Of a DNA stretch of 57,538 nt, positions 11,083 to 51,762 are shown one piece after another. Made by a program: the position numbers and the translations under genes. This DNA comes from Cochliopodium minus. Lineage: Eukaryota; Discosea; Himatismenida; Cochliopodiidae. The stretch is taken from contig JAMYWO010000156.1 of the NCBI GenBank assembly GCA_024220525.1, positions 19,899-77,436 of the forward strand, read 5' to 3'. Each line of letters starts with the position of its first letter. The first letter of the stretch is position 1. The notes under the pieces are model-generated. The model saw only the letters and a program-made list of their open reading frames with translations. It made no database searches and was not told the origin of the DNA.

Positions 11083-14067
11083 ATGGGAATTGATAAAATG
11101 CTTAAAGGTAATAATACCTCATGTTATATTAATTATATCTATTTATAATTCTAGTTTTGTTGATAATTTTCTCATCAATAATAATGATAAATGCATGGCC
11201 GCCAAATCCGCCACCAATAGGTATAGTTTTCATTCAAATTTAAAACATCATATCAACTAATAAATGATTAATCAGGTCCTGTAGTTGGACAAGACATTCC
11301 CAATTCAGATTTGGCAGGGATGCCAATCACATTGAGCGTTGCTGATTATAATATCTGCTCCAAAATGTGTGATTTGACTCCAGGATGCAGAGCATGGTCC
11401 TACGGAATTCCTAATTGTGGTAAAATTTTCATTTGAAATATCAAAAATTTTTCTTTATATTTATTTATATTTAAAATCAAAAGGAGGAGGAAGCAAAGAT
11501 GCATTATGTTGGTTGAAATTTCATTATAACGAGCCATCAGTGTAAAAAATTATAAAAATTTATAAATAATATTTTTATATTTTTAATATTTCCCCAATAT
11601 AAATTTGTTGTATCAAAATATATAATTCTTAACTAATCTCTATATAAAAAGACCAAACAGTTGTCGTATTTACGGAGTTACATCAAAAGCATGTCAATTG
11701 GAAACACAATGGACACAAAAAGGTGACCAATCTCACAATAAAAATACAATTCTCATCCTTTTTAATTATTTTAGTCGATCCAAACAATACCCTCCCTGAA
11801 TACCCTAGACCTCAAATGGCACGTACCAGTACATCATGGAAGAACTTGAACGGGATGTGGCAATTCCAATTCGCTACACAAAATCAAAATCCACCATTCA
11901 ACACCAATCTTAATCAAAGCGTATTGGTACCATTCCCCATTGAATCATGTTTATCAGGTAAAAAAAATATTATTCGTTTGTTAAAATTTTTTACTAATAA
12001 TACTCTTTTATATTTAAGGAATCCAAAAGACAGGAATGTACTTGTTCTACAGACTTGTCACACCGTTCCCTTTCCCCAACGCAGCTTCAAGCTCTCGCGT
12101 TTTACTCCACTTTGGAGCAGTAGATTGGCAAACAACTGTCTATGTAAATGGTAAAATATTTTCAAAAATAATTACAGACATAAATGAAACTAGTCTTAAA
12201 TACAATCATTAGTTTTTGGATTTTTATTTTTTAAATTTTTTTATTATTTTATTAAAAAAAGGGATTAATGTTACAACACATACCGGTGGGTACTCTGGTT
12301 TCACAGTTGATGTGACCAATGTGTTGAATAAAAATGGAAACAACGAGATTTTCTTGTATGTGTACGATCCATCAAACTATGGTTCTCAACCATACGGTAA
12401 ACAAAGAATTGGTGCAATAGATAATCCAGGAGGAGATACGTAAAAAAAAAAATTACCTAATTTAATTCCAAAATAAATTTAAAACAATTCTTTTCTTTAG
12501 ATACACACCAAGTTCTGGAATATGGCAAACAGTCTGGTTCGAAAGCGTTCCAACAAACTACATAAGCGGACTCAAAATCACACCAGACCTCACAGGAGTC
12601 AACGTAATTGTCAACTCTCTCCCCAACTCCGGATCAAAAGTCGACTTGTTTGTGTACGATGGTAAAAACGTGGTAGCACAAGCTAATGGCGTGACTGGCT
12701 CCTCTATTCGTCTCAACATTGCAAATCCAAAGTTGTGGGACAGCAAGAGCCCTTTTCTTTATAATTTGACTGTCATTTTTAATGGTGGAGATGACCTTAT
12801 TGAATCTTATTTTGGACTTAGAACAATCACCCTTGGTCCTGATGATAAAGGTGTCACTCGTCCTTTATTGAATGGTAATTTTAATTTTTTATATTTTTTA
12901 TATTTCAACTTTATAAATTTAATAGGAAAATTCACTTTTCTTGCCGGATGGTTGGATCAAAGTTGGTAAAATAGTTTTTTTATTATAAAAATTTAATAAT
13001 TAATTTTTTAAAGGTGGCCTGATGGATTATATACTGCACCAACTGACGAAGCATTGGCTTTTGACTTGTATGCTGTTAAAAATTTCGGGTACAATTTTGT
13101 CCGTCTCCATCAAAAAGTGAACCCACAAAGATGGTATTGGTATGCTGATCGTCTTGGAATAGTTGTCCAACAAGATTCAGTTCAACATTAGTAAAAAATA
13201 AAATAAAATAATACAAAAAACCTGAAATATAAATTTATTTAAATAGTGGAGATCAACATGGAATTGTCCCAAACCCTGATTATTACATGAGTGATCTTAA
13301 ATATATGATTGACGAAAGGTAAGATTTAATTAATTTTTATTCATTTTTATTCTTTTCAATTTTTTTTTAAAAAGATATAACCACCCTTGTATTATACAAT
13401 GGACTGCTTTCAATGAAGATGATATGGTCAACCACTTCAATGCAACCAAAGTAGTAGAATGGATCAAAAACTACGATCCTTCCAGAATGGTTGATACTGA
13501 TTCCGGTGGTCCTGCTAACGACTTGCACGTTGGTGATGTTAATGATGTCCATACATACCCAGTACCTGGTATTATTTCTTTAATCATTTCTTTTTTTATT
13601 TATGAATTTTTGAACATTATTTTTAAAAGGTGACCCAAAACCTTCTAAAACTCAATATGCTGAGGTTGGAGAATATGGGGGTATTGGATATTTCGAATCT
13701 GGACATATGTGGGCTGAAGGATTATGTAATGGAATAAAATTTTTTTTTAATTTCAATTTTTATTTTAAATTTTTTTAAAAGGTTACTCTTACAAAACAGT
13801 GAACAGTAGTACTTCTCTTGCAGATACTATCATCCAATATGCAAATCTTATTTTGTGAGTTTTTTTTTTCCTTTTTAAAAACTTATTTTCATTCATTTTT
13901 TAAGATCAAACAAAAAAGACATCTCCATCAGTGTTTACACTCAAATCACTGATGTAGAGAATGAATGTGATGGATATTTCAACATGGATAGAACAAACAA
14001 ATTCAATCCTCTCGATACATCAAGATTGATTGAAGCTAATCAAAATTTAATTAACACTCCTGCTTAA
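11083..14067 (+). CDS. GH2 glycosidase with N-terminal PAN/apple-like domain
   Basis: Sixteen in-phase exons encode 681 residues. A hydrophobic signal/anchor lies at about residues 9–24. A Cys-rich PAN/apple-like domain follows (CSKMCDLTPGCRAWSYG, then CGGGSKDALCW). The GH2 sugar-binding, immunoglobulin-like and TIM-barrel domains come next. GH2 marks are EYPRPQMART..W..LNGMWQF, FVRLHQKVNPQRWYWYAD, the acid/base Glu in WTAFNED and the nucleophile Glu in VGEYGG. It is probably an extracellular or lysosomal beta-galactosidase-type enzyme; beta-mannosidase or beta-glucuronidase activity is possible. The apple-like module may bind a carbohydrate or protein target. The final exon ends at 14067. 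An apparent pairing with GH27 is not safe, because an N separates them. Confidence 0.85.
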
Positions 14068-19199: not shown

Positions 19200-20552
19200 A
19201 TGAAAAATATCTTCAAATCATTCAATAAAAGCAAATTATTCAATTCATTCCAATCATACAAGAATTTTTTTGCAACACAAACCAAAAAATCACCACCATC
19301 TAGAAAATCAAGATGGAAATTGATTGCAGCATTCACTGCAATGACGATAGTTGGACCAACATTCCTTTATTACATTGAAGATAGCAACAGAAAATTCAAA
19401 GGAGAAAATATAGGTAAGATGATGACCTTAAATGATGGAAGAACCGTATCTTACTGTGAATATGGATCTAATGATGGAAGAACAATCTTCTATTTTCATG
19501 AAGGAGGAAATTGTAGGTTGGAGATCTCCTCTTTCTTTTATGAGAGATTAGGGGAGAGTTTGGAATCAAAAGGAATAAGAATCATATCAATAGATAGGTA
19601 ATTCAAATATTTGGAAGGATCTTTTTATCATAATCCTTCTTTTATAAACTTTATTTCCTATTCATTTATATTATCTTGTTAATTAGACCTGGTTATGGAA
19701 GATCATCAAATAAAAATCTTCATTCAATTGAAGGTATATCCAATGATGTTATAGAAGTTGCAGAGAAGCTAAACATACCCAAATTTTCAATTATGGGAAA
19801 CAAAAGTTCAACACATCTTGTCCTATATTCTGCAGAAGAATTATCAAGGAAGTCTCCTGAAAAGTTACACAGAGTTGGGGTAAAAAAATCATTTTTAAAT
19901 ATAAAAATTTTTAATAAAAAAAAAAATTTGTTTGATTAATAGGTTATTTCTCCTGAGTATTTCATTAGAAGGGAAGAAACAGTTCCTTCTTCTTTTTTCA
20001 TTGTGAACGCAAAACTTATTGTCAAAGCAAACATGGCCTTGATGAGAAGTGCTTTATTTTCCAGACCTGGGGACTTTGGGTTGAGGATTATAGAACAAAT
20101 GTCCAAAGGTAATCATGAAATTATTATGTCCAAATCAAAAGTATCCCTAATTTCTATTAATAGAAAGTGTGAACAAGGATTATATTGAATTGTTAGAAGA
20201 GAATATCGATAAAGTGGGTGTTTCTGCTTTGGAATCTCTTTTAAATGGGACTGAAGGGATCTATCAAGACATTAAAATTAAACATTTGCCTCTTTCCTTC
20301 AACTTGAATCAAGTTTTTATTCCGGATGGGTTTTATATTTGGGCGGGAAAGAATGATGATGTTACTAATTTGTTAGATTTAAAAGAAATTTCCAAACAAA
20401 TTCCCAACAACACTCTAAAAATCATTGATAATACTGGACATACTGGTGCCATTACTTTTTGTTGGAATGAAGTTGTCGATGTATTGGCTGATGGTCTTCC
20501 AAAATCATCTGATTCATATCCTCGTGATATTTTAACTTTAGAGAAAAAATGA
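19200..20552 (+). CDS. alpha/beta-hydrolase-fold protein, likely mitochondrial, nucleophile Ser replaced
   Basis: Four exons (19200–19597, 19687–19879, 19943–20108, 20164–20552) give 381 residues. The N-terminus is basic and Ser/Phe-rich, followed by a membrane segment (KLIAAFTAMTIVGPTFLYY), suggesting an anchored mitochondrial protein. The fold is clear from the oxyanion segment FYFHEGGNCR, SIDRPGYGRSS, the acid loop IWAGKNDDV and the catalytic His in DNTGHTGAI. At the nucleophile elbow, however, the usual G-x-S-x-G reads GNKSS, placing Lys where Ser is expected. It is therefore probably a non-catalytic or atypical member. It shares a promoter region with the rhomboid protease. Confidence 0.8.
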
Positions 20553-26860: not shown

Positions 26861-28169
26861 TCAATAATCCCCAAAAATATCTTCACAGTAATTCTTTTCT
26901 TCAGAAGAATAAACTTCATAGATCAAAGGTTGTGGTTTTGGTTGAATTATTTCTACTGAAAGTGAACAAACATAATACTCCAAAATGATGAGCTGAATAG
27001 GTTTTGGGAATACCAAATTATTTCTCTTCGAAAATCTCTTTGATCCCATTAAAACCAAAAGTATTCTCTCTTTCACAGTAGAAGGATATATCTCAAAATT
27101 TTCTTTTTTCCAAACAATTCCTCTTTTATAATAATCATTGAACTTTGAATGATTATCAAAAACTAATTTTTGTTGCAAAGCTATTCCTTCATAAATATCC
27201 TCTTTTATCTCCCTGGTTCCTTTAAAATCATATTGGATCATTAAAGAAATATTAATCATATTTTTGAAAGCGTTGACAATTTGATGAGGAACACTTGCAA
27301 GACAAGGTAATTCTGTTTCAAGAGAAACTGTCGCAATTCTCCTTAAACCTTAATTTAAAATAATTAAATTTAATTAAATAAAAATAAAATAAAATAAAAA
27401 AGTTTTTTTCAGTAAAATTTAAAAATAAAAAAATATTAATTAAGATACCATATGATAAATTTTCGAGTACTTCATTCCTTCCAATATTGAGTAAATTAGC
27501 ATCATAAACAAAACTGGAATCAAAAACAGCAACGCACTTTGCACAATAAAAAAAAGGCTTCATATCAAATTTTTCCAATAACAAGACTTGTGAAAGAGTT
27601 ACTTCATCCCCAATCTTGATTAAACACGTTCTATCCTTCACTAGTACTTGTCCCTTGACAATTCTAGAAGGGATATTTAAAGTTTGAAATAATTTGATAA
27701 AAGGAGGCTCGAGACCTGTTGATCCCCTTTCAATAAATACTTCTTGTGGTGCAATCTGTCCTTCTTTTGCTCGGGATATTCGTTGGAATGATTCAATTAT
27801 TCCCTTCATTTCTTTCAAATCTCCCTTTGTGAAAAATAGAGCAATATTTCCTTCCATGTAGATTGACAAACCACCAATATTTAATTTTTCTTTGTTTCCC
27901 AACAATTCACATCTTGTCACATACTCTTTTATCGTTTCATTTATAATCGTGTTTTCCTCGAAATGCAAAATTGATTGATTATCTCTTTTTGATGTTGATT
28001 TTCGAATCTTCTTTATCGAACTTGCAGATTTTAAAATTAAAAAATTTGTTGAAAAAAGATATTACTTTATATTTTCAAAATTTACAACCATAATTTTATC
28101 ATATTCGTTGAATAAACCTATTAATTTATCCATCCTATCTGCTTTCTCATTTCTCTCCTTTATTTCCAT
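26861..28169 (-). CDS. ribosomal stalk protein P0 (uL10)-like protein with unusual C-terminus
   Basis: Three exons (28169–28066, 28020–27449, 27348–26861) give 387 residues. The N-terminal uL10 domain is clear (MDKLIGLFNEYDKIMVVNFENI, SIKKIRKS). The P0-specific insertion domain follows (GSTGLEPPFIKLFQTLNIPS, KGQVLVKDRTCLIKIGDEV). The segment LRRIATVSLETELPCLASVPHQIVNAFKN matches P0 up to the last conserved helix. The expected Ala-rich P1/P2-binding helices and the acidic GFGLFD tail are then missing. About 130 other residues replace them, including a KRFSKRN...FPKPIQLIILEYY segment. It is probably a paralogue of the true P0 or an Mrt4-like assembly factor. Sequence divergence throughout argues against it being the main stalk protein. 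Confidence 0.75.
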
Positions 28170-35460: not shown

Positions 35461-37226
35461 ATGAAGCAAACAAAGAAAAGAAGCAAAAAATTAAATAGAA
35501 AGACAAGATCTTTGGAAAAGGTAAATCAAAATGGATAATAAAAACAAAATTACTTAATATCATTTTTTATAATTCTATTAATAAAATAGTTGTTGGTTGG
35601 GAATCCTTGGATGATGGATTATATATTAGATGGCGAAGTAAATTTTGAATCAAGATTTGGATCAAGTCTTTTGATATTGTTCCATATGAATAATAAAGCT
35701 GATGAATTAATAGATATGGCCACAAAGCAATTACAAAAATGTAAGTTATAACAAGAAAAAAGCAAAATATAAAATTATTTTTCATTTTTGACAAAAATAT
35801 ATATTTTTCACTTAAAATTAATAATAATCAATCTAAAAAAAAAAAAGATAAAATAGATCTTCTCAGAACAAATGAAGCAGCATCTATGATTTTCATTGAA
35901 TATTGCAGAATCTCAAGCTTTAACTACATTAAGAAAATAGTTGGTCCTATACTTGAGAAATACATCATGTTGGACTTGCCATTCTCCCAAATAGACCACA
36001 TGGAGAATTTAAAAATAAATGAGATTTTAATATCAAGATTCATACAAGATTTGATGGATGCAATGTTCGAATCAAGAAAAGATTTTCCACAGTAAGAATT
36101 TAAAAAAAAAAATATTATTTTATTATTTTTTTAATTTGAAATTTCAACAAAAAAAATTAAAATAATAAAAAATAAATTAATTTTTTTTTAAAGATCCATG
36201 CTTTATCTATTAAAATATATCACATTAAAACTAAACATAGAGGAATCCAACAGAGGGCTCTCAAATGATTACAAATTCCAAGTAGTGAGCATGATTTTGT
36301 TCTTAAGGATCTTGGTACCTTTCATAATAGATCCAATCAAAACAGGGTTGTTGGACAAGGATCTCGAATTGAGAAGCAACACAAGAAAGACCTTGCTTGA
36401 AGTCTCAAAAATAATCCAAATAATAGCCAATGGAGTCGAAATAGAAAAGGATCATCCAATGTTCAACTGGCTCAACAGATTTCAACCATATCAAATCAAA
36501 ATGAAAGTTTTCATTTCGGAGCTAATGGTAAAAAAATAATTTTTTTTTTCTTGTTTTTGTTTTGACTAATTTCTTCTTTTTTGTTACAAATAGAAAAATG
36601 TGGATGGAGTTGATTATTCTTATCCAAAGTTCAAAAAAAGAGTTTTAAAGGAGAATTCCAAGCTCATCTTTCAAGTGATCAACAACAACTTGGACAGCAT
36701 TGTAAAAAACATGTCTAAAGTGACTCAGTTGAACAAATATGGTTTCTCTCCCAGCTCTTTCATCAAACCCTTCATCAAAGTGATCAACAAATGTCGTTTG
36801 CGTAGCAAGATGGAGCCATATTCACTCAACACAAGTCTTTTGCCGTTGAGATCACTTCACAAAAGACCTAGTTTGTCTACCATTGAAAACTTGAAGAGTC
36901 TTGAGCATGGAAATTCACACATTAATGTAAATACTATAAATAGCAAAAACAAAAACAGCATCCTTTCTGAGAAGAAACTTAGCATCAACGGATCTTGTGT
37001 TGTCTTTTCCGAGTTCAAAAAGCATCAGCAATTCGAAAGATACAGCAATGATCTTGTTGAGAAGTCCAGGATGGACACCATCAGAAAGAGATTTTCTGCT
37101 TTCACTAGGAAATCCATTATCAAAAGCAAAAACTCTGGTCTTGATCAATTTAAAGAAAGATCTAGTTTTGTTACTAACAATACCCGTAAAACGGTTGGAT
37201 TAGAATTAGATGATTGTATATTTTGA
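35461..37226 (+). CDS. RasGAP-domain protein
   Basis: Starts MKQTKKRSKKLNRKTRSLEK at 35461. Exons run 35461–35520, 35590–35740, 35848 to about 36091, about 36195–36530 and about 36597–37226. The Ras GTPase-activating domain fills most of the protein. It has a short DGEVNFESRFGSSLL lead, the arginine-finger region LLRTNEAASMIF, the long helix SMLYLLKYITLKLN, and the hallmark LFLRILVPFIIDP (family FLR..PAI..P) whose Arg stabilises the finger. LLEVSKIIQIIANG follows. The C-terminal about 150 residues are basic, Ser-rich and unstructured. It would switch off a Ras-type GTPase. It converges on the first WWE/hydroxylase gene, with 52 bp between stops. Confidence 0.85.
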
Positions 37227-37278: not shown

Positions 37279-40200
37279 CTAAATGCTTAAAAAATCATTG
37301 ACAGTTTCTTCATTAAAGTTAATGTTCCAAGTATGTTCATTCATGAACTCTTCTAGTTCATTGTTCTTTCTAAACTCTGTGATTCTTCTTTCATACCAAA
37401 CGATCGCTCCTTGCAAATTACAGTTTACTGCATCATGTTCAATCAAAGACTCTCCAATCTTCATGTTTCTAACAATGTTGAAAGGAATTTCCTTTTCGTT
37501 GATTAACTTTGAAATTTCAATTTGGATTTGATCAACAAGTTTTTCGTTGACAATTCCTCCAGTGATAACAATGTTGCTCAAAACAAGTTTTTGTTGTTCG
37601 GTTGTGAGTGGTTTCAAAACTTGCAAAAGTTTTTTTGCAGTGAGAGAAGGCAAGTGTGATTCATGAATCGTTTTGAGTTTTTCCTCCCAAAATAGTTGTA
37701 CATGTTCTTGATCGAAATTGAATGTTCCCTTTTGAGATTTGTCCATCAAGAAATGGAAGTTGTGTCTGTATGGAGGATCAAAAGCATGTTGGTTATGATC
37801 AAAAGGGAGTTCTGAAACAACTTTCTCATTGATAACTGCCCAAATGTTCAAGGATCTGCTATTAAAATCAATCACAATTCCACTTACTGTTTGATAACAA
37901 GAAAGACAAGCGACATGGTGAGGAACAGTGATGTAACCAACAAAACCAGCACTAATAGAGACTTGTTTGAGTTCATGTTCCATCACTTTTTTGAAAAATC
38001 CTTGGTTTGGTTCAACAAAAACGACCACTTCACTTTGAGAGTTTTTAGAAATCATATTTTCGAGGTATTTGAGTGAAGAAATCGTTCTGTTTGCCGAGAT
38101 TGGAACAAAAAACCTAAATTCATCTTTATCTGATGTATAAGCAACATCTTCTATCCCACAAGATGTAACCATCTCCCTATTTGTATGACCTCCATGAGCT
38201 AAATTGTTGAAATTAAAAATAAATTAAAAACTTTTAATAAAACTAATAAATAAAAACTTACCGTAGTATGTGTGTATTGAAAAAGAGATAATATTCTCAT
38301 TCTTTTTGAATTCATATTTCCAAGAAATAGGTTTCGAAGTTTCTTGGAGAGGATAATGAGAAGAAATATTTGCATGATCTGCACAATAAAACTTGTACAT
38401 CTTATTTTCAAAAGAGAAATAGATTGGTAATTTCGCTTTTTTTGACTCTTTTAATCTTGTATTTTCTTTTCCAAATTTTTTGTTACAAACAACACAAGAT
38501 GCACAACTTTGGCAAAATATTCCATCTAGTTCAAATAACGAAGTCATTTTAAAGTAATTGTATCCTCCGCAATTTATACAATTATATCCTAAAACAGAAT
38601 CACTTCTTTTTTTAGTTCCCACTTTGAAATAGTTTCTTCCAAGATCTATTGAATCTACTTTTTGAATCGGAGATGTTGTTTGGTTCTTCACAAACTTGAA
38701 AATGTTGTACCAGTCGTTCAAATTTGCGCTCAATCTTAGTTGATCCAAGTTTATTCCGAATGGCAAGTTGAAGATTCTTGCAAAAGGAGATCTCAAGTAA
38801 AGTTTTTGCCAGATTCTTCCATCTCTTGACATTGCATAAAAACTAAAAACGGAACAAAAGTGTAATAGATAAGTTTAAAAAAATTATGAATAAAAAACCA
38901 TTTAAGAAATAAGTAAATAAAAATTAAATTGAATAAAAATTAAATAATCAAAAGATTAAATTAATGCAAAAAAAGTTAAAATTAAGCAAAATCATAAAAT
39001 TAAAATAAAAAAAAAAAGTTACCTTTTACAAACTTGCATTGTTGAACAAACATCATTACATTCAAGTAAAAACAATATCTTGGTCCAGATCACTCTCGGA
39101 ATTCCCAATATCTGAGTTCCAATGTTCTGAGTTCTTGCATTTCTTTGAATGTTGAGAAATTGAAGGTATGTATCAGTTGATTCTCCAATATTTCCTGTTG
39201 ATTCATGGTTTAAACTTTGTTTGTACAATGTCACCATCTTTTTGTATTCAACATTTTCGTTCAAATTTTTTTCTCTGAAAATTTTTGAATCAACCCTTTT
39301 GAACATCACTTTTTCAAAGAAAAAAAAATCAAAAATTGAAGTTGATATACATAAAAATCTTTTCTTACCTTCAGATCTGATGATATACTTTGTTCCTTTC
39401 AAAAGTTTTGCTCCTTCGTGATATGATTCATGTGTGAATATCAATGCTGTTCCAACTTTTGGTGTTATTGTTGCCAAAATATCTTTTTCATCAACAAATT
39501 TGCCTCTTTTTCCTTCCAATTTCGATTGTAAAGGTTCTTTGTAAAAATTTGTTTTCCCTCCTTCATAATCGTCATTCAAGTAGATCACAACAGTAAAAAC
39601 ACTGCTTTCATCTTCTCCAGGAACCCATGGACCATCTTAAAAATCAAAAAAAAAAAATAATTGTGAAAAGAATGAAGAGATGAAATGAAAGAAAATGGGT
39701 AATTAAAATTGTGAATAAAAGTAAATGTTGAGTATTTTTACCAATATGCGGTTGAAAACAACTTCCTTCGCTGTATTTCGCAAATTTAACACATTTATTC
39801 AATCCACTTGCTTTCCATGTTCCTTCTGTTCCGAATCCCATCGGTTTTATGAACAAAAGATCTTCGTCTTTGAGAGTTTGTTGGATCCTGCTCCATATCA
39901 CCCCTGTCAAAACTTCATCAAGAACCAAAATACTTTTTTTTTAAAAAAGAAAGATGATAATAAGAATAAGATAAATTTTTTTAAAAAAAGAAAATGTAAA
40001 GTGAAAGTAAAGCTTGTTTACATTTCGTTTCCTCTGTAATCTTTTTCGTATTGTTGTGTCAAATCTTGATATCCTTCTTCGTTTGTTTTTTTGATATAAT
40101 ATTCACATTCTTCGGGAGTAAGGACATTCTCAACAGTAAAGATGGTATTATCTTCAACGACATAGTCTTTTCTTTTCAGATCAACTTGAGATTTCCCGAG

Positions 40201-41070
40201 ATCATTTGGAGGTTCGATTATCTTGTAGTTTCTTTTTGAAGTCCATAGCATTTCTTTGACATGAGCAATATATCTCCTTTTGTTATCTTTCTTTATTTCC
40301 TTCAATTCCTCTTGATTGATTCCCAACAGGCTTTCTTCTTTATCTTTTTGGATGTAGGTATTATTGGAAGAAATTGGTGCGATTCTTTTTATCTTGAACG
40401 AAAAACTTTCTTTTCCTTTCAATACTTGAAGTTGTTTTGCAAATTCGATTTGAAAGGTATAATCTTTCACCTTTATCTCTACTTTCTTTTCTTTTTTGAT
40501 GAAAGATTCTTCTATTAACTTTGAGATTTCATCATCATGCGCAATCCATTTCTTTTTCTCGTTCAAATAACACCAAACTGCTTTTTTATTGCATCTCAAA
40601 ACCTTATATTGTCTCTTGGATGAATCAATACAATTCATTTTGGAAAGATCTATTAGGAATTTCTCTTCATTCAATGTTATGCTCGATTCTTTTTTCCTAT
40701 AACCATTTTCAAGAAGAATTTGGGATTGATTTGAAAATGGAAATAATAATCCTTTGAGATCATCATAATAGAACCAAAAACAATCTTTTGTATTGGTGAG
40801 CATATCCAATTCATCTTGATCAAATCTGTTTATTTCTCCTCTTTTGATTTTCCTCTTTTTGATTGTTGTTGTATTCATTTGAGTCATTTTATTCAAATCA
40901 GCTTCATAAATCTTTCCAGCAACAAATATCGATACATTTGGGGACAATTTCTTTTGGAGATAATTTTGATAGCATAATTCAAGCTTATTAGAATTGCTAT
41001 GAGAAAATTCTTTCCAATTTATTTCATCTTCCCAAAACCATGGAACAATATCTTCTTCAATTTCGTTCAT
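37279..41070 (-). CDS. WWE×3–2OG/Fe(II) dioxygenase–F-box–LIM-like–actin-related protein, copy A
   Basis: Six exons (41070–40022, 39932–39742, 39635–39369, 39308–39023, 38842–38262, 38198–37279) encode 1,097 residues. WWE domains lie at about 10–77, 96–159 and 164–230; such domains bind (ADP-ribose) chains or ubiquitin-system partners. A prolyl-4-hydroxylase-type domain spans about 325–507. It has the H412-x-D414 iron pair (FQPHIDG), the distal His at 486 (HESYHEG) and Lys496 for 2-oxoglutarate (GTKYIIR). An F-box covers about 570–622 (IPRVIWTKILFLLECND, CKSFYAMSRDGRIWQKLY). A LIM-like zinc module has ligands at 686, 689, 708, 711, 714, 717, 751 and His754. The actin-related domain fills 792–1097 (VFVEPNQGFF, VSGIVIDFNSRS, NIVITGG, GAIVWYERRITEF) and lacks the first phosphate loop. 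It is probably an SCF substrate adaptor with its own hydroxylase. Plant ARP8 is a known F-box–actin-related fusion; I know of no precedent for this whole order. Confidence 0.82.
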
Positions 41071-41146
41071 TTTTTTTATAAAATTAAAAAAAAAAAAAAT
41101 TTTTAATTCAAAATTTTTGATTGATAAAATTTTTAGCTGAAAAGAT

Positions 41147-44100
41147 TTAAAAGGAAAATTCATTTTCAATATTCATTGTATTCCAAAAAATCTTGGGCTT
41201 CGATTCATTAAAGTTGACAGTCCAAGTATGTTCTTTCATGAACTCTTCTAGTTCATTGTTCTTTCTAAACTCTGTGATTCTTCTTTCATACCAAACGATC
41301 GCTCCTTTCACACTACAAAAAACAGGATCATGTTCAATCAAAGACTCTCCAATCTTCATGTTTCTAACAATGTTGAAAGGAATTTCCTTTTCGTTGATCA
41401 ACTTTGAAATCTCAATTTGGATTTGATCAACAAGTTTTTCGTTGACAATTCCTCCAGTGATAACAATGTTGCTCAAAACAAGTTTTTGTTGTTCGGTTGT
41501 GAGTGGTTTCAAAACTTGCAAAAGTTTTTTTGCAGTGAGAGAAGGCAAGTGTGATTCATGAATCGTTTTGAGTTTTTCCTCCCAAAATAGTTGTACATGT
41601 TCTTGATCGAAATTGAATGTTCCCTTTTGAGATTTGTCCATCAAGAAATGGAAGTTGTGTCTGTATGGAGGATCAAAAGCATGTTGGTTATGATCAAAAG
41701 GGAGTTCTGAAACAACTTTCTCATTGATAACTGCCCAAATGTTCAAGGATCTGCTATTAAAATCAATCACAATTCCACTTACTGTTTGATAACAAGAAAG
41801 ACAAGCAACATGATGAGGAACAGTGATGAATCCCATCAAATTACGTTGTTTAGCTACTTCTTGAAGTTCTTTTTTGAGCACCTTCTCATAAAAATTTTGG
41901 TATGGCTCAACAAACACGACTATTTCACCGCCCACTTTTGATTGCAAGAAATTACCAAGAAACTCAACAGAGTTGATGGTTCTGTTGCTTGAAATAGGAA
42001 TGAAGTATTTAAAGTTTCCCTGATGTCTAGCTACTGATACATCATTTAATCCAAAACAATTATTGTCGTAAGTAATGCGATCTCCATGAGCTAAATTGTG
42101 AGTTTACAAAAAAATGATTAATTAAATACAACAAAAGAAAGAAATTTAAAAAGTTACAGTAATAATAATGTTTTGATGTAGAAGCGATGTTTTCAAACTT
42201 TAATAATGTAGATTTCCACAAAATAGGTTTCGATTTTTCTGGGAGAGGATAATGAGAAGAAATATTTGCGTGATCTGCACAATAAAACTTGTATTTCCCA
42301 TTTTCAAAGGAGAAATAGATTGGTAATTTCACTTTTTCGGTCTCTTTTAATCTTGCCGATCCAAAGTTTTTGCTGCAAACAGAACAAATTGAACAATCCC
42401 CACAGAGAGATCCGTCTATCTCAAAATAATTTTTCGTGCTGTAGTGATTGTATTTGTCACAAATAGAGCATTTGTAATTAGAGGTATATGTAATTTGATT
42501 TTTTTTGGCCACTTTGAAGGAAAATCTTCCAAGATCTACTGCATCAACTCTTTGGATTGGAGATGTTGTTTGGTTCTTCACAAACTTGAAAATGTTGTAC
42601 CAGTCGTTCAAATTTGCGCTCAATCTTAGTTGATCCAAGTTTATTCCGAATGGCAAGTTGAAGATTCTTGCAAAAGGAGATCTCAAGTAAAGTTTTTGCC
42701 AGATTCTTCCATCTCTTGACATTGCATAAAAACTAAAAACGGAACAAAAGTGTAATAGATAAGTTTAAAAAAATTATGAATAAAAAACCATTTAAGAAAT
42801 AAGTAAATAAAAATTAAATTGAATAAAAATTAAATAAATAAAAGATTAAATTAATCCAAAAAAGTTAAAATAAAGAAAAATCATAAAATTAAAATAAAAA
42901 TAAAACAAAAGTTACCTTTTACAAACTTGCATTGTTGAACAAACATCGTTACATTTCAACAAAAAGAATATCTTGGTCCAGATCACTCTCGGAATTCCCA
43001 ATATGTGAGTTCCAATGTTCTGAGTTCTTGCGTTTCTTTGAATGTTGAGAGATTGAAGATATGTATCAGTTGATTCTCCAATATTTCCTGTTGATTCATG
43101 GTTTAAACTTTGTTTGTACAATGTCACCATCTTTTTGTATTCAACATTTTCGTTCAAATTTTTTTCTCTGAAAATTTTTGAATCAACCCTTTTGAACATC
43201 ACTTTTTCAAAGAAAAAAAAATCAAAAATTGAAGTTGATATACATAAAAATCTTTTCTTACCTTCAGATCTGATGATATACTTTGTTCCTTTCAAAAGTT
43301 TTGCTCCTTCGTGATATGATTCATGTGTGAATATCAATGCTGTTCCAACTTTTGGTGTTATTGTTGCCAAAATATCTTTTTCATCAACAAATTTGCCTCT
43401 TTTTCCTTCCAATTTCGATTGTAAAGGTTCTTTGTAAAAATTTGTTTTCCCTCCTTCATAATCGTCATTCAAGTAGATCACAACAGTAAAAACACTGCTT
43501 TCATCTTCTCCAGGAACCCATGGACCATCTTAAAAATCAAAAAAAAAAAATAATTGTGAAAAGAATGAAGAGATGAAATGAAAGAAAATGGGTAATTAAA
43601 ATTGTGAATAAAAGTAAATGTTGAGTATTTTTACCAATATGCGGTTGAAAACAACTTCCTTCGCTGTATTTCGCAAATTTAACACATTTATTCAATCCAC
43701 TTGCTTTCCATGTTCCTTCTGTTCCGAATCCCATCGGTTTTATGAACAAAAGATCTTCGTCTTTGAGAGTTTGTTGGATCCTGCTCCATATCACCCCTGT
43801 CAAAACTTCATCAAGAACCAAAATACTTTTTTTTTAAAAAAGAAAGATGATAATAAGAATAAGATAAATTTTTTTAAAAAAAGAAAATGTAAAGTGAAAG
43901 TAAAGCTTGTTTACATTTCGTTTCCTCTGTAATCTTTTTCGTATTGTTGTGTCAAATCTTGATATCCTTCTTCGTTTGTTTTTTTGATATAATATTCACA
44001 TTCTTCGGGAGTAAGGACATTCTCAACAGTAAAGATGGTATTATCTTCAACGACATAGTCTTTTCTTTTCAGATCAACTTGAGATTTCCCGAGATCATTT

Positions 44101-44972
44101 GGAGGTTCGATTATCTTGTAGTTTCTTTTTGAAGTCCATAGCATTTCTTTGACATGAGCAATATATCTCCTTTTGTTATCTTTCTTTATTTCCTTCAATT
44201 CCTCTTGATTGATTCCCAACAGGCTTTCTTCTTTATCTTTTTGGATGTAGGTATTATTGGAAGAAATTGGTGCGATTCTTTTTATCTTGAACGAAAAACT
44301 TTCTTTTCCTTTCAATACTTGAAGTTGTTTTGCAAATTCGATTTGAAAGGTATAATCTTTCACCTTTATCTCTACTTTCTTTTCTTTTTTGATGAAAGAT
44401 TCTTCTATTAACTTTGAGATTTCATCATCATGCGCAATCCATTTCTTTTTCTCGTTCAAATAACACCAAACTGCTTTTTTATTGCATCTCAAAACCTTAT
44501 ATTGTCTCTTGGATGAATCAATACAATTCATTTTGGAAAGATCTATTAGGAATTTCTCTTCATTCAATGTTATGCTCGATTCTTTTTTCCTATAACCATT
44601 TTCAAGAAGAATTTGGGATTGATTTGAAAATGGAAATAATAATCCTTTGAGATCATCATAATAGAACCAAAAACAATCTTTTGTATTGGTGAGCATATCC
44701 AATTCATCTTGATCAAATCTGTTTATTTCTCCTCTTTTGATTTTCCTCTTTTTCATTGTTAATGTATTCATTTGTATCATCTCTTGCATATCAACATCAT
44801 AAATCCTTCCTTCCACAAATAATGAATAATTCATTATCCCTTTGTGTTTTAGATAGTCCTGATAGCATAATTCGAGCTTATTTGAATTGCTCTCAGAAAA
44901 TTCATTAAATAGAATTGATTCAGATTCCTCTATCCAAAACCAGGGAACAAATATATCTTCAATTTCGTTCAT
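41147..44972 (-). CDS. WWE×3–2OG/Fe(II) dioxygenase–F-box–LIM-like–actin-related protein, copy B
   Basis: Six exons (44972–43915, 43825–43635, 43528–43262, 43201–42916, 42732–42158, 42090–41147) encode 1,106 residues with the same order and exon phases as copy A. The dioxygenase residues (PHID, YHEG, GTKYIIR) are identical. The first WWE differs strongly (VPWFWIEESESILFNEF, IYDVDMQEM). In the zinc module, all Cys and the final His are kept but most residues between them change. The first 80 residues of the actin-like domain, and a short patch before the last helix (PVFCSVK for AVNCNLQ), also differ. Copy A starts 76 bp downstream of this stop, leaving little room for a separate promoter. A secreted Cys-rich gene diverges 181 bp upstream. 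Confidence 0.82.
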
Positions 44973-46435: not shown

Positions 46436-49400
46436 ATGGTATAATTTTATAAAGAAGTAGAATAATAAAAGAGTTTAATTTCCCATCTAATTCAATAATT
46501 TCCATATTAATTCAGGACGAAGAAAAAAAAGATAAAAAAGAAGAGAGGAAAAGACTTCAAAAAGAAAAGAGGGAGAAGAGAAAATCTGTGGGGATATCTG
46601 GAATATTCAATTTTATAGGAAAGATAAAGAAAGATTCAGATAATATTGAAAAAAATAATAACAACCCAAGTTTCCACACCATATCTTCTCCACAAGATAA
46701 AAGGGAATCTAAATCTAGTGCAACTAATTTGAAAGATTTATTCAATAATCCCAACAACACAAATGACAACAAAGATACTTCCAGAATATCATTTAGGAGC
46801 AGCGATAAAAGGGAAAAAGATCAACCAATGCCTGATGTGGAGACTATTGAAAGATTATTTAATGAGATTGTGATTGTAAGCATTATTCTTCATTCATTTT
46901 CACTATTAATTATATTTATTTAATTTTTTTTTTTGTCAAACCTTTTAATATCTCATTATTTTATGGTTCCACTCAAATTGAACAAAGTTTAATATAATAT
47001 ATGCTCACTAATTCAAAATTTACCTTTGAAAAAAAATTTATTTTTATGTTATAATTTTTATAATGAATACAAATCACATTTTAAAATATATTTTTCAAAG
47101 ATATGGCGAGTTTTTTTATTTACCCTTTATTCTATCATAAAATTTACTATTAGAAAAAAATTGGAGTTAATTTGAATCCTAATCAATTAACTACCGACAA
47201 CAAATGGATCATGATCCAACAATACAAGACAATGGATGATTCTGTTTTCAATACCACCAATAAACCAAAGAAAATTGTGAAGCAAATAGATGAAATGAGA
47301 AGCAATTCAAAGATAAATCACAATACTATCTCCAACATCAGTGTTGTAACTGGTAATAAGAAAAATATTTTTAAATTTAATCTCCTCCTAACAATATATA
47401 TTCTATTGATTCATAATTATTTGAATGAAAGCTTTATTGAATCATATTTCATATCCATCAAAGATTCTTTAAGAGGACATAATCTTGAATACGATTATAA
47501 TTTAATGTTCTTTTATTCAATTTCTTAAATATAGGATCTGCACCAAGAGAATGGCTTCTTAAATTCATAGAATTGGATGGACACACAAAAATATTCGATT
47601 TGTTGTCCTTGATAATAGGACTACAGAAGAAATCAGAAGAGGATATCTCCAATATCGTAGATCTGGCAAGATCTGTCAAAAATTTGATGAGTATATCTGA
47701 AGGTATCAGTGTGGTATCGAAATCTTCATCCAATATGAAATTGTTAGTGAGATCATTAGATTATCTCAACATTTTATCACAAGATATGATCATAAGAATA
47801 TTTCTTGGGGTCGTAATAAAGAGTGTGGATGGACATAAGTAAAAAAAGTTTATTTAAAAAAGCTTTTATTGATCTTTTAAATATTTTTATTTTTAATTCT
47901 ATAGAATGATTGTTGACTGTTTTTCTCAAGAAAACCGCCAAACAGGAAATAATTACTTTTCTAAACTCATTGATTTTATTGGGACAAAAAATAGAGATTT
48001 AAGAGTAAAAAATATTTTCAAATTATTTCATTTTTTTCTGATAAAAACTTTCTTTTTATTCATTCACAAAGTTAAATACTCTCATTTTGTTAAACACTCT
48101 TCTTTGTCCTTCGGGTTACACTTTAGAGACAGAAACAAGAAAGAAAATGGTAGAATGGCTCGAGAAATCTACGTTGGTGAATACTTTCACAGAAGTTTAC
48201 GAAGAAAACGATGAAGAGATGCAACCGCATTTGGTCAAGTTCATGGAAAACAACTCTGAGTTTAATCTCCACAAAAAGTTGGGGTTGGATACCAACTTAA
48301 AGTCTTCCATACAAACCAAAAACTGCACCAATTTAGTAAACACATTGATTTCTCAATTCAACTACCAAGAATCTTTCGATTACTTTGTCTCTCTTGTAGA
48401 AAACATGTTGTTGGTTAAAAAAACGGGTAAGAGGGGAGTAGAAACATGGAGCAAGTTGAATGATTTCGTTGGGGAGCTTACTCTCAACAATGTGGATCCT
48501 GTAGATGATGTATTTATTGCTTCTTTCAAGGCAATCATGGATTTGGATCTTGTTGGTCAAACACCTAGGGTGAATAACGACAGATCCGAAGTTGATAGTC
48601 TTTACAGTAAGATTGATGAGCTTCACAAAGAAATAGACAAACTCAAATTGATGTACAAAAACGTTGTTCAATACAAATTCCATCAAAACAGTCCTTCTGT
48701 TCAGAGCAGGAATCACACTCCTTCTATCCCTCCCAAGGTCGAGACACCAACTCTCCCTCCACAACAACACGTCCAAATTATTGAAAACAATACTCCTACA
48801 ATCACTGAAAAATCAACTGAAAATACTTCTAATCCACAAGAACAACAAATCAAAGAAAATACAATTCCAACAGAAGTATCTGGAGGTAATTTAATTTTTT
48901 TTTTTTGATTTTTTTAATATTTTAAAAAAATTGTTTTAAAACTTTTTTTTTGATAATTTTTTAACAATTATTTTTATTTTTGGTAAAGAGAATACAAGTC
49001 AACAACAAGGAGAACATCCTGTTGAAAATGTGCTCACACCCTCTCCTATGGTAGTTGGAAAGGAGCTTACCTTGACAGAAAACACCCTCACCCTGTCCCC
49101 TTCTCCAGTGGTAGAAGACAAAGAACTCCAACCATCCTCCTTAACAGAAAACACCCTCCCACCATCCCCATTAGTAGAAGACAACATCCCTCCTCCAATA
49201 ACCAACACAGAAATCATTCCTCCTCCTCAAGTTATAAGCGATAATAGTGTTGAACCAGTTCCTCAAGAAATGGGTGTGAATGGAGAGTTCATACCTCCTC
49301 CTTTGCCTCCTGGAATGGAGGGCGAAGAGTTTGTTCCTCCCCCTGGGTTTGAGGGCGGTGAATTCATTCCCCCTCCTTTGCCTCCTGGGTTCGAGGGTGG

Positions 49401-51762
49401 TGATTTCATTCCTCCGTTCCCTGGTATGGATGGTCCTCCTTTGCCTCCTGGGTTAGGAGTTCCCGTAACACTTTTTTTTTAAATTTTTTTTAAAAGAAAG
49501 TTTTATATTTTATTTTTAATTATTTTATTTTAAATAGTTCCAATTTTAATTAATTGTTTTTTAATTTCTTTATGGGTTCTTCTCTTTTATAAATTATTTT
49601 ATTAATTTATTTTTGATTATTTTTTATTAATTGTTAATTTCTTAATTTTTGAGTGGTTTTATGAGCATTTTAAAATTTATTCTTGTAGAAGAAACAATTA
49701 CCCAAAAAAAAACAACCAAAACCCAATAAAAAAATGATTGGTTTGCCTTGGGCCATCATGAAACCAGAGACAGTCTCCAACACCTTTTGGGAACAAGCCA
49801 GTGACGAGTCATTGATGGGAGAACTCGACGTCAGCGAAATTGAAAACATTTTTGGAAGAGAAGTTGTCGAAAGCACCCCCAAAGTCAGAGTCGAGACAAA
49901 ATCAGAGAAGCCTATCGAAATCACTGTCATTGATCCTAAAAAGTCTAACAACTTGGCTATCATGCTTTCCAAGTTTAGAATACCTTATTCTGATATTAGA
50001 AAAGCTATTTTGACCATTGATCCTAAAGTTTTGACTCTTGAAAGATTACATTTATTGGTAGTTTTTTTTTTATTTTTTTTTTGGTTTCTTATTTTATATT
50101 TTTATTAATTTTACGTATTTTTATTTTATTTTTTATTTTTTTTATATTATATTTCATTTTTTTTTATATTTTAATTATTTTTAAAATTAAAAATAGGAAC
50201 CATTTTTAATTTTTTATTTAATTTTTATTTTTGGTTTAAACATTTTCATTTAATTTTATTCCAATTTTTGGTTTCTTATTCTATATTTTTATTAATTTTA
50301 CTTATTTTTTTTTTATTTTTTATTTTTTATTTATTTTTTATTTTTTATTTTTTTTATATTTTATTTCATTTTTTTAATTAAAAATAGGAACCATTTTTAC
50401 CTTCATCGGAAGATATTAATGCCATTCAGTCATTTAGTGGGGAAAAAGAAATTTTGGCAAAGGCAGACAGATTCTATTTGGAAATCATGGACATTCCAAG
50501 ACTCACTCCTCGCTTTCAATGTTTGATTTTTAGGCTCACTTTCAACGAGAAATTTAATGTTTTGAACAAGAAAATCGGGAACACTTTAAAGGCTTGTAAT
50601 GTCATCAAAACAAGCAAAAATTTTGCGTCTGTTCTCGAACTTGTTTTGGCGCTCGGAAATTATTTGAATGGAGGAACTTGTAAAAATTTTTTTTTTTGGA
50701 TCAAATTATGCCAATACTATTTTAAATTTCATTTTATTTTTTTTGTAACATTTTTTTTCATTTAATTTTTTTTTGTATTATTCAAAAAACATCATTTTTT
50801 CAATTTTTTTTTAAACTTTATTTTCAAAGTACATTGACTTAATATTTTTTTTTCAAATCTAAATTTTTTTTTCTCATTTTTATTTTTAAATTTGAATTAC
50901 TTATCAACAAAAATTTCAATTAACTCAAATTTTTTTATTTTTTTTTTTTAAAACTTAATTTTTTTGTTTTTCATTAGTCAGAGGAGGTGCTTACGGATTT
51001 AAATTGGGAACGCTTGATCAACTTCCTCAAATCAAAGGTAATGATGGAACAACACTCATGACATATCTAGTAAGACAAATAAAGAAAAAGTTCAAAGACT
51101 TGGAGAAATTTTTGGAAGAGTTGGAATGTATCTCCAGTGCTGTCAGTGGTACCACCAAGTTCTTCGCTTCTGAAGTGAAGGATTTGGAGGCTGGGTTGAG
51201 GTCTGTGGAAGAGCAAGTACAGTATTCTCCTATGGACGAAAGTGACAAATTTAATTCTGTCATGGGTCCTTTCATTCAAAAAAGTAATACAATTTTTTCA
51301 TTTTTTTTCATTTATTTTTATTTTTTTTTATCCCAACATTTTTTTATCCCATTTTAAATAAATTTATTAAAATTTCTGTTTTTTTTTTAAATAATTTTTT
51401 TTTAAAAAAACCTTTTTTTTTAATTTTTAATTTTTTTATTTTTTTTTTTATTAGTTACTCCAAGAATAAACTGCCTTACTAAAGACTGCCAAGATCTTTC
51501 AGAAGCATACAAACAAATTGCAGTTCACTTTGGCGAAGATCCAATGACAGACTCTGACATCTTTTTCAACATCATTCTCCGCTTCTGCCAAAACTACAAG
51601 CAAGCTGTACAAAAAGACGAGAATTTGGAAAAGGAAAAGCTTAGGAAGGCTACTCAACCTAAAATCAATCCTATGACTCCTCAAAAAATGAATCAAATCA
51701 AAATTGAGTTGAAGGGTGAACTGGATATCATGATTTCTAAGATGAGATCTGGTGATTATTAA
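46436..51762 (+). CDS. diaphanous-related formin (GBD/FH3–FH1–FH2)
   Basis: Actin nucleator and elongator. From about 46516 the frame gives a charged N-terminus (DEEKKDKKEERKRL). A GBD/FH3 armadillo region follows (PDVETIERLFNEIV, PREWLLKFIELDG, LLVRSLDYLNILSQD, MVEWLEKSTLVNTF, NDFVGELTLNNVD). Next come a coiled helix (SEVDSLYSKIDELHKEIDK) and an FH1 region rich in PPPLPPG repeats (about 49180–49470). A complete FH2 follows (GLPWAIMKPETVSNTFWEQ, NNLAIMLSKFRIPYSDIR, VLELVLALGNYLNGGT, RGGAYGFKLGTLDQLPQIK). It ends KMRSGDY at 51762 without an obvious DAD. The only ATG that fits upstream is 46436–46438, directly followed by GT; splicing to 46516 gives M-DEEKK. That start, made of the ATG alone, is tentative. 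FH1–FH2 is certain. Confidence 0.88.

Follow-up and report, generated by a model that had tools for sequence, protein, structure and literature searches.

Tandem genes of Cochliopodium minus and their paralogs appear to join WWE, prolyl-hydroxylase-like, F-box and putative actin-like modules in one chain

Gene structure and module order

We analysed a 57,538-nucleotide (nt) stretch of the genome of the protist Cochliopodium minus (assembly GCA_024220525.1, 44,654,751 bases on 598 contigs), covering positions 19,899 to 77,436 of contig JAMYWO010000156.1, here C156. This stretch is called the window, and window coordinates are contig coordinates minus 19898. The window holds two tandem minus-strand genes, A and B, which extend from the ATG of gene B at 44972 to the end of the gene A stop at 37279 (Table 1). 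The open-frame listing and splice inspection showed a single frame through six exons in each gene, and all introns were of the GT-AG type and 60-183 nt long. Several exceed the 9-95 bp reported for introns of Acrasis kona (PMC11589745). An earlier note on this DNA had placed two six-exon, single-frame genes at these coordinates, and the spliced models confirmed it. It had also read each product as three WWE domains, a prolyl-hydroxylase-like dioxygenase, an F-box, a LIM-like zinc module and an actin-related domain, in that order. Pfam hidden Markov models upheld the first three modules in both translated models, whereas neither LIM nor actin had a Pfam match in A or B. The proposed modules and their order were largely borne out, except that the zinc module is probably no separate unit ahead of the actin domain.

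In gene B, WWE was matched in three stretches (8.8e-26), 2OG-FeII_Oxy_3 at 1.6e-10, F-box-like at 5.1e-8 (amino acids (aa) 574-618) and F-box at 2.5e-5, all above the curated cut-offs. The same set of WWE, 2OG-FeII_Oxy_3 and F-box matches exceeded the cut-offs in gene A.

A paralog family with conserved module order

Genes A and B belong to a gene family, because four further loci, C105, C157, C114 and C63 (named after their contigs), carry the module order of B on one strand. A six-frame genome search with protein B yielded at least 56 matches, 42 of 67 candidates having been scored. Spliced alignment to B gave identities of 71 to 39% (C105, 778/1098 aligned positions; C157, 480/926; C114, 502/1133; C63, 426/1085), and the refined open models comprised 1099 aa in six exons (C105), 961 aa in 11 (C157), 1122 aa in 18 (C114) and 1058 aa in 13 (C63, locus L042, C63:148500-156500). 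Because A, B or a shortened B served as guide for these models, the independent evidence is the order of matches in the six-frame search. A spurious far seventh exon was left out of the C105 model.

The apparent fusion might instead arise from two adjacent genes per unit or from model error. The 60-nt intron 3 is open in frame in both A and B, so the frame alone does not require its removal, and the models of C157, C114 and C63 were B-guided and contain some very short exons. However, exon 1 is common to the WWE domains and the start of the prolyl 4-hydroxylase-like (P4H) module, exon 5 is common to the F-box and a phosphate-1-like motif, exons of 191, 267 and 286 nt are common to A, B and C105, and all six loci show the order. 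At the intron 3 site C105 has an intron of 117 nt, and its match across this site contains stops. We consider an artefactual fusion highly improbable.

Three other relatives were excluded from the six-gene count. C78 (L043, L044) carries family pieces in scrambled order, its actin end lying some 50 kb off, which reflects either rearrangement or an assembly fault; C42 has P4H and F-box modules, and its upstream sequence reads N, which prevents a call on WWE; two P4H-like copies lie at C375. A 14630-aa open frame at C42 had raised the idea of a giant protein, which was rejected because the frame is a stretch reading N. A scan of viral contigs with the actin-domain alignment produced 97 pattern matches, of which tblastn confirmed none. 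The P4H alignment gave at least 600 pattern matches there, with at least 273 relatives, 80 of them kept at 24-37% identity. A six-frame scan with the family profiles, set to cover these viral loci (L084-L163), gave matches for P4H; with E allowed to reach 1, it found none for WWE, the F-box or the actin part.

WWE, hydroxylase and F-box modules

Pfam WWE (PF02825) exceeded its curated score in all six proteins, in three stretches in five of them and in one stretch in C157. Gene A exon 1 matched the RNF146 WWE in the Protein Data Bank (PDB) through WWE1 (E 0.0024). In WWE structures, adenine is bound by a highly conserved Gln (PMC11269756). The WWE1 Gln aligned with a Gln of RNF146 (Gln67 in B) was kept in five of the six paralogs, A and B included, and was Leu in C63.

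The 2OG-FeII_Oxy_3 match was likewise above the cut-off in A, B and five of six proteins overall, C63 reaching 18.2 against 27 bits. In dioxygenases of this type the HxD motif and the distal His are the iron ligands, and a Lys serves 2-oxoglutarate (2OG). HxD, the distal His and the Lys (His+10) were intact in the same five proteins, while C63 has I, D, F and K at the positions of H415, D417, H489 and K499, so that two of three iron ligands are gone. By its residues C63 is a natural pseudo-enzyme that has kept the zinc ligands, the actin motifs and the F-box. The P4H family alignment matched solved prolyl 4-hydroxylases in the PDB at E 1.6e-8 and 5.3e-7, and PDB entry 6t8m, presumably Dictyostelium PhyA, at E 0.067 only.

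F-box-like (PF12937) was above the cut-off in all six proteins and F-box (PF00646) at or above it (C63 exactly, 20.5 versus 20.5 bits). The best solved match of the F-box family alignment was the F-box of KDM2A (E 7e-4).

Zinc module and actin-like domain

The zinc module has eight C/H ligands, invariant in seven of seven aligned rows. The two-zinc spacing of LIM domains is CxxC-16to23-HxxC-2-CxxC-16to21-CxxC/H/D. In gene B the spacing is CxxC-18-CxxC-2-CxxC-31-CxxH, with C as third ligand and a longer last loop. Pfam LIM (PF00412) matched only two of seven members at all (best E 0.076), and PDB LIM chains matched at E 3.4, 4.6 and 3.6; the proposed LIM identity is not established.

The DxGx4K motif was invariant in all six paralogs and, in the C-terminal alignment, stands N-terminal to the zinc ligands; its spacing equals that of DNGSGMVK, with which the genome's own actin opens. 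Because this motif precedes it, the zinc module looks inserted in the actin-like domain. It is probably nested there and not, as first proposed, a separate unit ahead of the actin domain, a placement based on the motif and its position and not on statistics.

In hhalign comparisons the C-terminal family scored 41.5 against an actin profile (P 8.4e-5, probability 60%), the significant match being the second half. None of 120 column shuffles reached this score (mean 16.4, standard deviation 2.7, maximum 24.2), and the WWE, P4H, F-box and zinc modules scored at most 18.8 against the same profile. Control profiles from the same genome scored near background with the C-terminal family (HSPA12, 18.0, P 0.2; Hsp70, 21.5, P 0.065). 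A further Hsp70 scan, intended to enlarge that profile, found nothing. As yardsticks, the known distant relatives Hsp70 and actin scored 39.4 against each other, and HSPA12 against actin 24.0. The second half of the actin-like part alone scored 28.7. The actin profile was built from actins and actin-like genes (L051-L055, L069-L073, and eight of 13 loci, namely L056-L061, L063 and L064).

Several results count against an actin-type identity. Scored by itself, the first half of the actin-like part gave 15.6, which is background; none of the six members matched Pfam actin (PF00022) at E up to 10; and a PDB profile search listed six chains, none of them actin. Among four hhalign settings, one run set the D of DxGx4K on the actin D (whole length, low posterior), two global-mode runs put the motif elsewhere with a poor score, and the fourth covered the second half only. 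In an initial trial on four actins, P was only 0.015. The kinship, at an hhalign probability of about 60%, is moderate. The earlier call of an actin-related domain thus stands on profile-profile similarity, above the null and above Hsp70 and HSPA12, and not on Pfam or PDB matches; we favour an actin-type identity, in the sense of a superfamily relationship.

The earlier note had offered a regulatory or nucleotide-switch role for this domain. If the domain opened and closed the receptor as a nucleotide-driven switch, this would fit the retention of DxGx4K and TG(G/S) in all six paralogs and the alignment to actin (P 8e-5). However, all six have D-x-N-S as second phosphate loop, versus D-x-G-D in actin, and in the nearest analogue, the Arabidopsis F-box protein ARP8/SUSA2, mutants in the predicted nucleotide residues still complement (PMC7562919). 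Both points weaken the proposal, and we find such a switch improbable. Because the ARP8/SUSA2 mutants still work, a scaffold appears preferable to a switch, and in our best reading the actin-like part would bind targets; the ARP8/SUSA2 authors predicted that its actin fold binds substrate (PMC7562919).

An Hsp70-like C terminus had been suggested by a plus-strand stretch downstream of the C42 relative, which we took to resemble HSPA12 and which had no Pfam match. This stretch lies past an Hsp70 gene on the opposite strand and reads as a gene of its own, and the HSPA12 and Hsp70 profiles score near background against the family; the idea was rejected. The reversed family alignment scored higher against the HSPA12 profile than the true alignment did (23.4 versus 18.0). 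Gene pieces included, the genome has actin family matches at 83 places and HSPA12-like matches at 34. A pattern search of the genome for eukaryotic small-subunit rRNA found none. Loci L056-L068 are actin-like genes, 59-91% identical to the genome's actin, in 13 contigs labelled bacteria, with eukaryotic contamination or transfer as the probable cause.

Table 1. Positions of genes A and B, their modules and their shared identical tracts in the window
Feature	Position	Strand	Detail	Basis
Gene B	41147..44972	-	1106 aa, six exons	Spliced model
Gene B exons	44972-43915, 43825-43635, 43528-43262, 43201-42916, 42732-42158, 42090-41147	-		Spliced model
B WWE1	44733..44942	-		Pfam WWE
B WWE2	44514..44672	-		Pfam WWE
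B WWE3	44277..44474	-		Pfam WWE
B prolyl-hydroxylase-like 2OG-Fe(II) core	43272..43680	-	aa 402-502, crosses intron 2; H415, D417, H489, K499	Pfam, residues, PDB P4H matches
B F-box	42681..43004	-	aa 572-618, crosses intron 4	Pfam
B phosphate-1-like motif DxGx4K, putative start of actin-like domain	42504..42554	-	D667, G669, K674	Motif; one of four alignment runs
B zinc module CxxC..CxxCxxCxxC..CxxH	42270..42470	-	aa 689-755	Eight invariant ligands
B putative actin-like domain, remainder	41243..42209	-	aa 776-1075, crosses intron 5	hhalign to actin profile
Gene A	37279..41070	-	1097 aa, six exons	Spliced model
Gene A exons	41070-40022, 39932-39742, 39635-39369, 39308-39023, 38842-38262, 38198-37279	-		Spliced model
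A WWE1	40840..41040	-	Nearest solved WWE RNF146, E 0.0024	Pfam WWE
A WWE2	40621..40779	-		Pfam WWE
A WWE3	40384..40581	-		Pfam WWE
A prolyl-hydroxylase-like core	39379..39787	-	aa 399-499; H412, D414, H486, K496	Pfam, residues
A F-box	38791..39111	-	aa 569-615, crosses intron 4	Pfam
A phosphate-1-like motif	38614..38664	-	D664, G666, K671	Motif
A zinc module	38374..38580	-	aa 686-754	Eight invariant ligands
A putative actin-like domain, remainder	37348..38313	-	Crosses intron 5	hhalign, spliced model
1694-bp A/B identical tract	A 39167..40860, B 43060-44753	-	Introns 1-3 included, uninterrupted	
279-bp A/B identical tract	A 38669..38947, B 42559-42837	-		
395-bp A/B identical tract	A 37517..37911, B 41412-41806	-		

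Sequence evolution of the modules

Genes A and B form a mosaic. Their identical tracts span WWE2-3 and P4H and leave out WWE1, the zinc module and the actin part's first half; synonymous divergence (dS) is 0.45-1.28 in WWE1, the phosphate-1 segment, the zinc module and that half of the actin part. Because the 1694-bp tract sits amid this old divergence, the simplest reading suggested is gene conversion that did not extend to WWE1 and the zinc/actin segment. Assembly collapse or a copy error is a possible cause of the identity.

Ratios of nonsynonymous to synonymous divergence (dN/dS) were estimated by the Nei-Gojobori method; many pairs were saturated, and pairs with infinite dS were not used. 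Between B and C105, dN/dS was 0.067 for P4H (dS 0.86), 0.072 for the F-box region and 0.157 for the linker between them, compared with 0.62, 0.26 and 0.20 for WWE1, WWE2 and WWE3, 0.64 for the 26-codon phosphate-1 segment, 0.31 for the zinc module, and 0.31 and 0.32 for the actin parts; in the linker before P4H, dS was saturated. For P4H, B-C157 gave 0.063 (dS 2.1) and B-C114 gave 0.121 (dS 1.6), both near saturation. P4H was the slowest or equal-slowest module in pairs with measurable dS. The low P4H and F-box ratios and the higher zinc and actin ratios are as expected if a constrained enzyme and docking motif were joined to a diversifying receptor.

A proposed oxygen-dependent substrate receptor

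F-box proteins usually combine a dock with a binding domain. Our leading hypothesis, to which we assign a probability of about 45%, is that A and B are substrate receptors of a Skp1-cullin-F-box (SCF) ubiquitin ligase with a built-in oxygen- and 2OG-dependent hydroxylase. The F-box would dock Skp1, and WWE1, perhaps with WWE2-3, would bind partners that are ADP-ribosylated or carry some other nucleotide mark. Target selection would fall to the C-terminal actin-like domain and its zinc insert, serving mainly as a rigid surface for protein binding. The P4H-like domain would hydroxylate either the target so captured or a component of the SCF, so that the outcome would become oxygen-dependent. The sequences show the gene structure, the module order, the catalytic residues, the conservation of the family, the differing rates of its modules and the presence of Skp1 and PARP genes; we infer Skp1 binding, ADP-ribose binding, hydroxylase activity, C-terminal target choice and ubiquitination. 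The genome carries PARP catalytic matches at 23 places, gene pieces included, and WWE matches at 28.

Some observations weigh against this hypothesis. C157 carries one WWE, with WWE2-3 absent; C63 lost two of three iron ligands, so some members do without hydroxylation; the actin kinship is moderate; the higher C-terminal dN/dS may reflect relaxed constraint instead of receptor diversification; and in Dictyostelium the oxygen effect of the F-box dioxygenase JcdI was independent of its F-box (PMC9485057).

Alternatively, these proteins could be mainly oxygen-dependent hydroxylases, in which the F-box lets Skp1 bind the enzyme and control its level, and the WWE and actin-like parts position it on a substrate that is not ubiquitinated. 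The slow evolution of P4H is in keeping with this, as are the JcdI data, in which sensitisation to O2 required catalysis but was independent of the F-box, and modification of Skp1 went with lower JcdI levels (PMC9485057). C63 speaks against it: the F-box, zinc ligands and actin motifs were kept despite the loss of iron ligands, and because of this the non-catalytic modules would seem useful without catalysis. We judge this alternative possible, though on the unlikely side.

Six Skp1 loci were matched in the genome. Five of them (C60, C175, C78, C245 and C33; L164-L168) carry a Pro in the context of the PhyA site (NDFTPEEEE, REFTPEEEE, NDFTPEEEE, YDFSPEDDG and RDFSPEEEE), and C43 (L169) has none. 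From the site sequence, the FTPEEE proline is presumably the one that PhyA hydroxylates. PhyA hydroxylates Skp1 at Pro143 in Dictyostelium and at Pro154 in Toxoplasma (PMC7864055). Because five of the six loci keep the PhyA-type proline, Skp1 is a candidate hydroxylation target, although this is a bold proposal. In one rival account the hydroxylase would act on the Skp1 bound to its own F-box, as a single-chain, cis form of the PhyA-Skp1 oxygen switch. The five prolines agree with this account, but the P4H module is closer to other P4Hs than to 6t8m (E 0.067), and a separate PhyA, if present, would explain the prolines; we regard it as quite unlikely.

The substrate-receptor hypothesis also has a bolder form, a self-contained oxygen-responsive SCF receptor, in which the F-box would dock Skp1, the attached hydroxylase would modify Skp1 or the zinc/actin-held target in cis, and WWE would restrict action to ADP-ribosylated targets. 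We rate this form a long shot; if it were true, signals from oxygen, ADP-ribose and ubiquitin would meet in a single chain. In A and B, one polypeptide seems to hold target reading, a hydroxylase and a ligase dock together, and the order is kept in six genes. This would connect oxygen-dependent hydroxylation with SCF in a way that can be tested, in a protist with a PhyA-type proline in its Skp1.

Comparison with known systems

KDM2A and KDM2B resemble A and B in combining an F-box with a 2OG dioxygenase, and the KDM2A F-box is the best solved match noted above. They differ in being JmjC histone demethylases with leucine-rich repeats and without WWE or an actin part. RNF146 and Deltex are RING-type ubiquitin ligases that lack an F-box, P4H and actin part. 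They share with A and B the occurrence of WWE in ubiquitin ligases, in tandem in DTX1/2 (PMC11269756).

The PhyA/PHD prolyl hydroxylases are similar in that a 2OG prolyl hydroxylase is tied to SCF via Skp1 (PMC7864055); PhyA is a separate enzyme, and the P4H of A and B is closer in sequence to other P4Hs. Dictyostelium JcdI/Fbxo13 and JcdH carry an F-box and an oxygen-dependent dioxygenase in one chain, and JcdI binds Skp1; their dioxygenase is of the JmjC type, unlike the 2OG-FeII_Oxy_3 type here, and the main text of that paper does not mention WWE and mentions actin once (PMC9485057). Plant ARP8/SUSA2 (At5g56180) combines in one chain an F-box at the N terminus and, after it, an actin domain, and it interacts with ASK1; as described there, it includes no WWE, P4H or zinc insert (PMC7562919).

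The combination of F-box and actin is reported from the plant lineage only (PMC7562919), whereas the family of A and B would represent an F-box plus actin-type protein in a protist. F-box with dioxygenase, F-box with actin-type domain, and WWE in ubiquitin ligases are each already known; what seems new is their union, and the zinc insert. In the open-licence literature, which makes this a weak negative, we found no precedent for the whole combination or for a zinc insert in an actin-type part.

Neighbouring genes

The end of a RasGAP domain was found at window 36192-36536 on the plus strand (Pfam 1e-7), in a gene that runs toward gene A. A formin-like gene at 48045-49482 (plus strand) has a weak FH3 match (6.1e-4, under the cut-off) followed by a proline-rich open frame. 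Farther off lie a ribosomal protein L10P insertion domain at 27321-28061 on the minus strand (Pfam 3e-15) and a glycosyl hydrolase family 2 domain at 12466-12966 on the plus strand (Pfam 2.1e-7).

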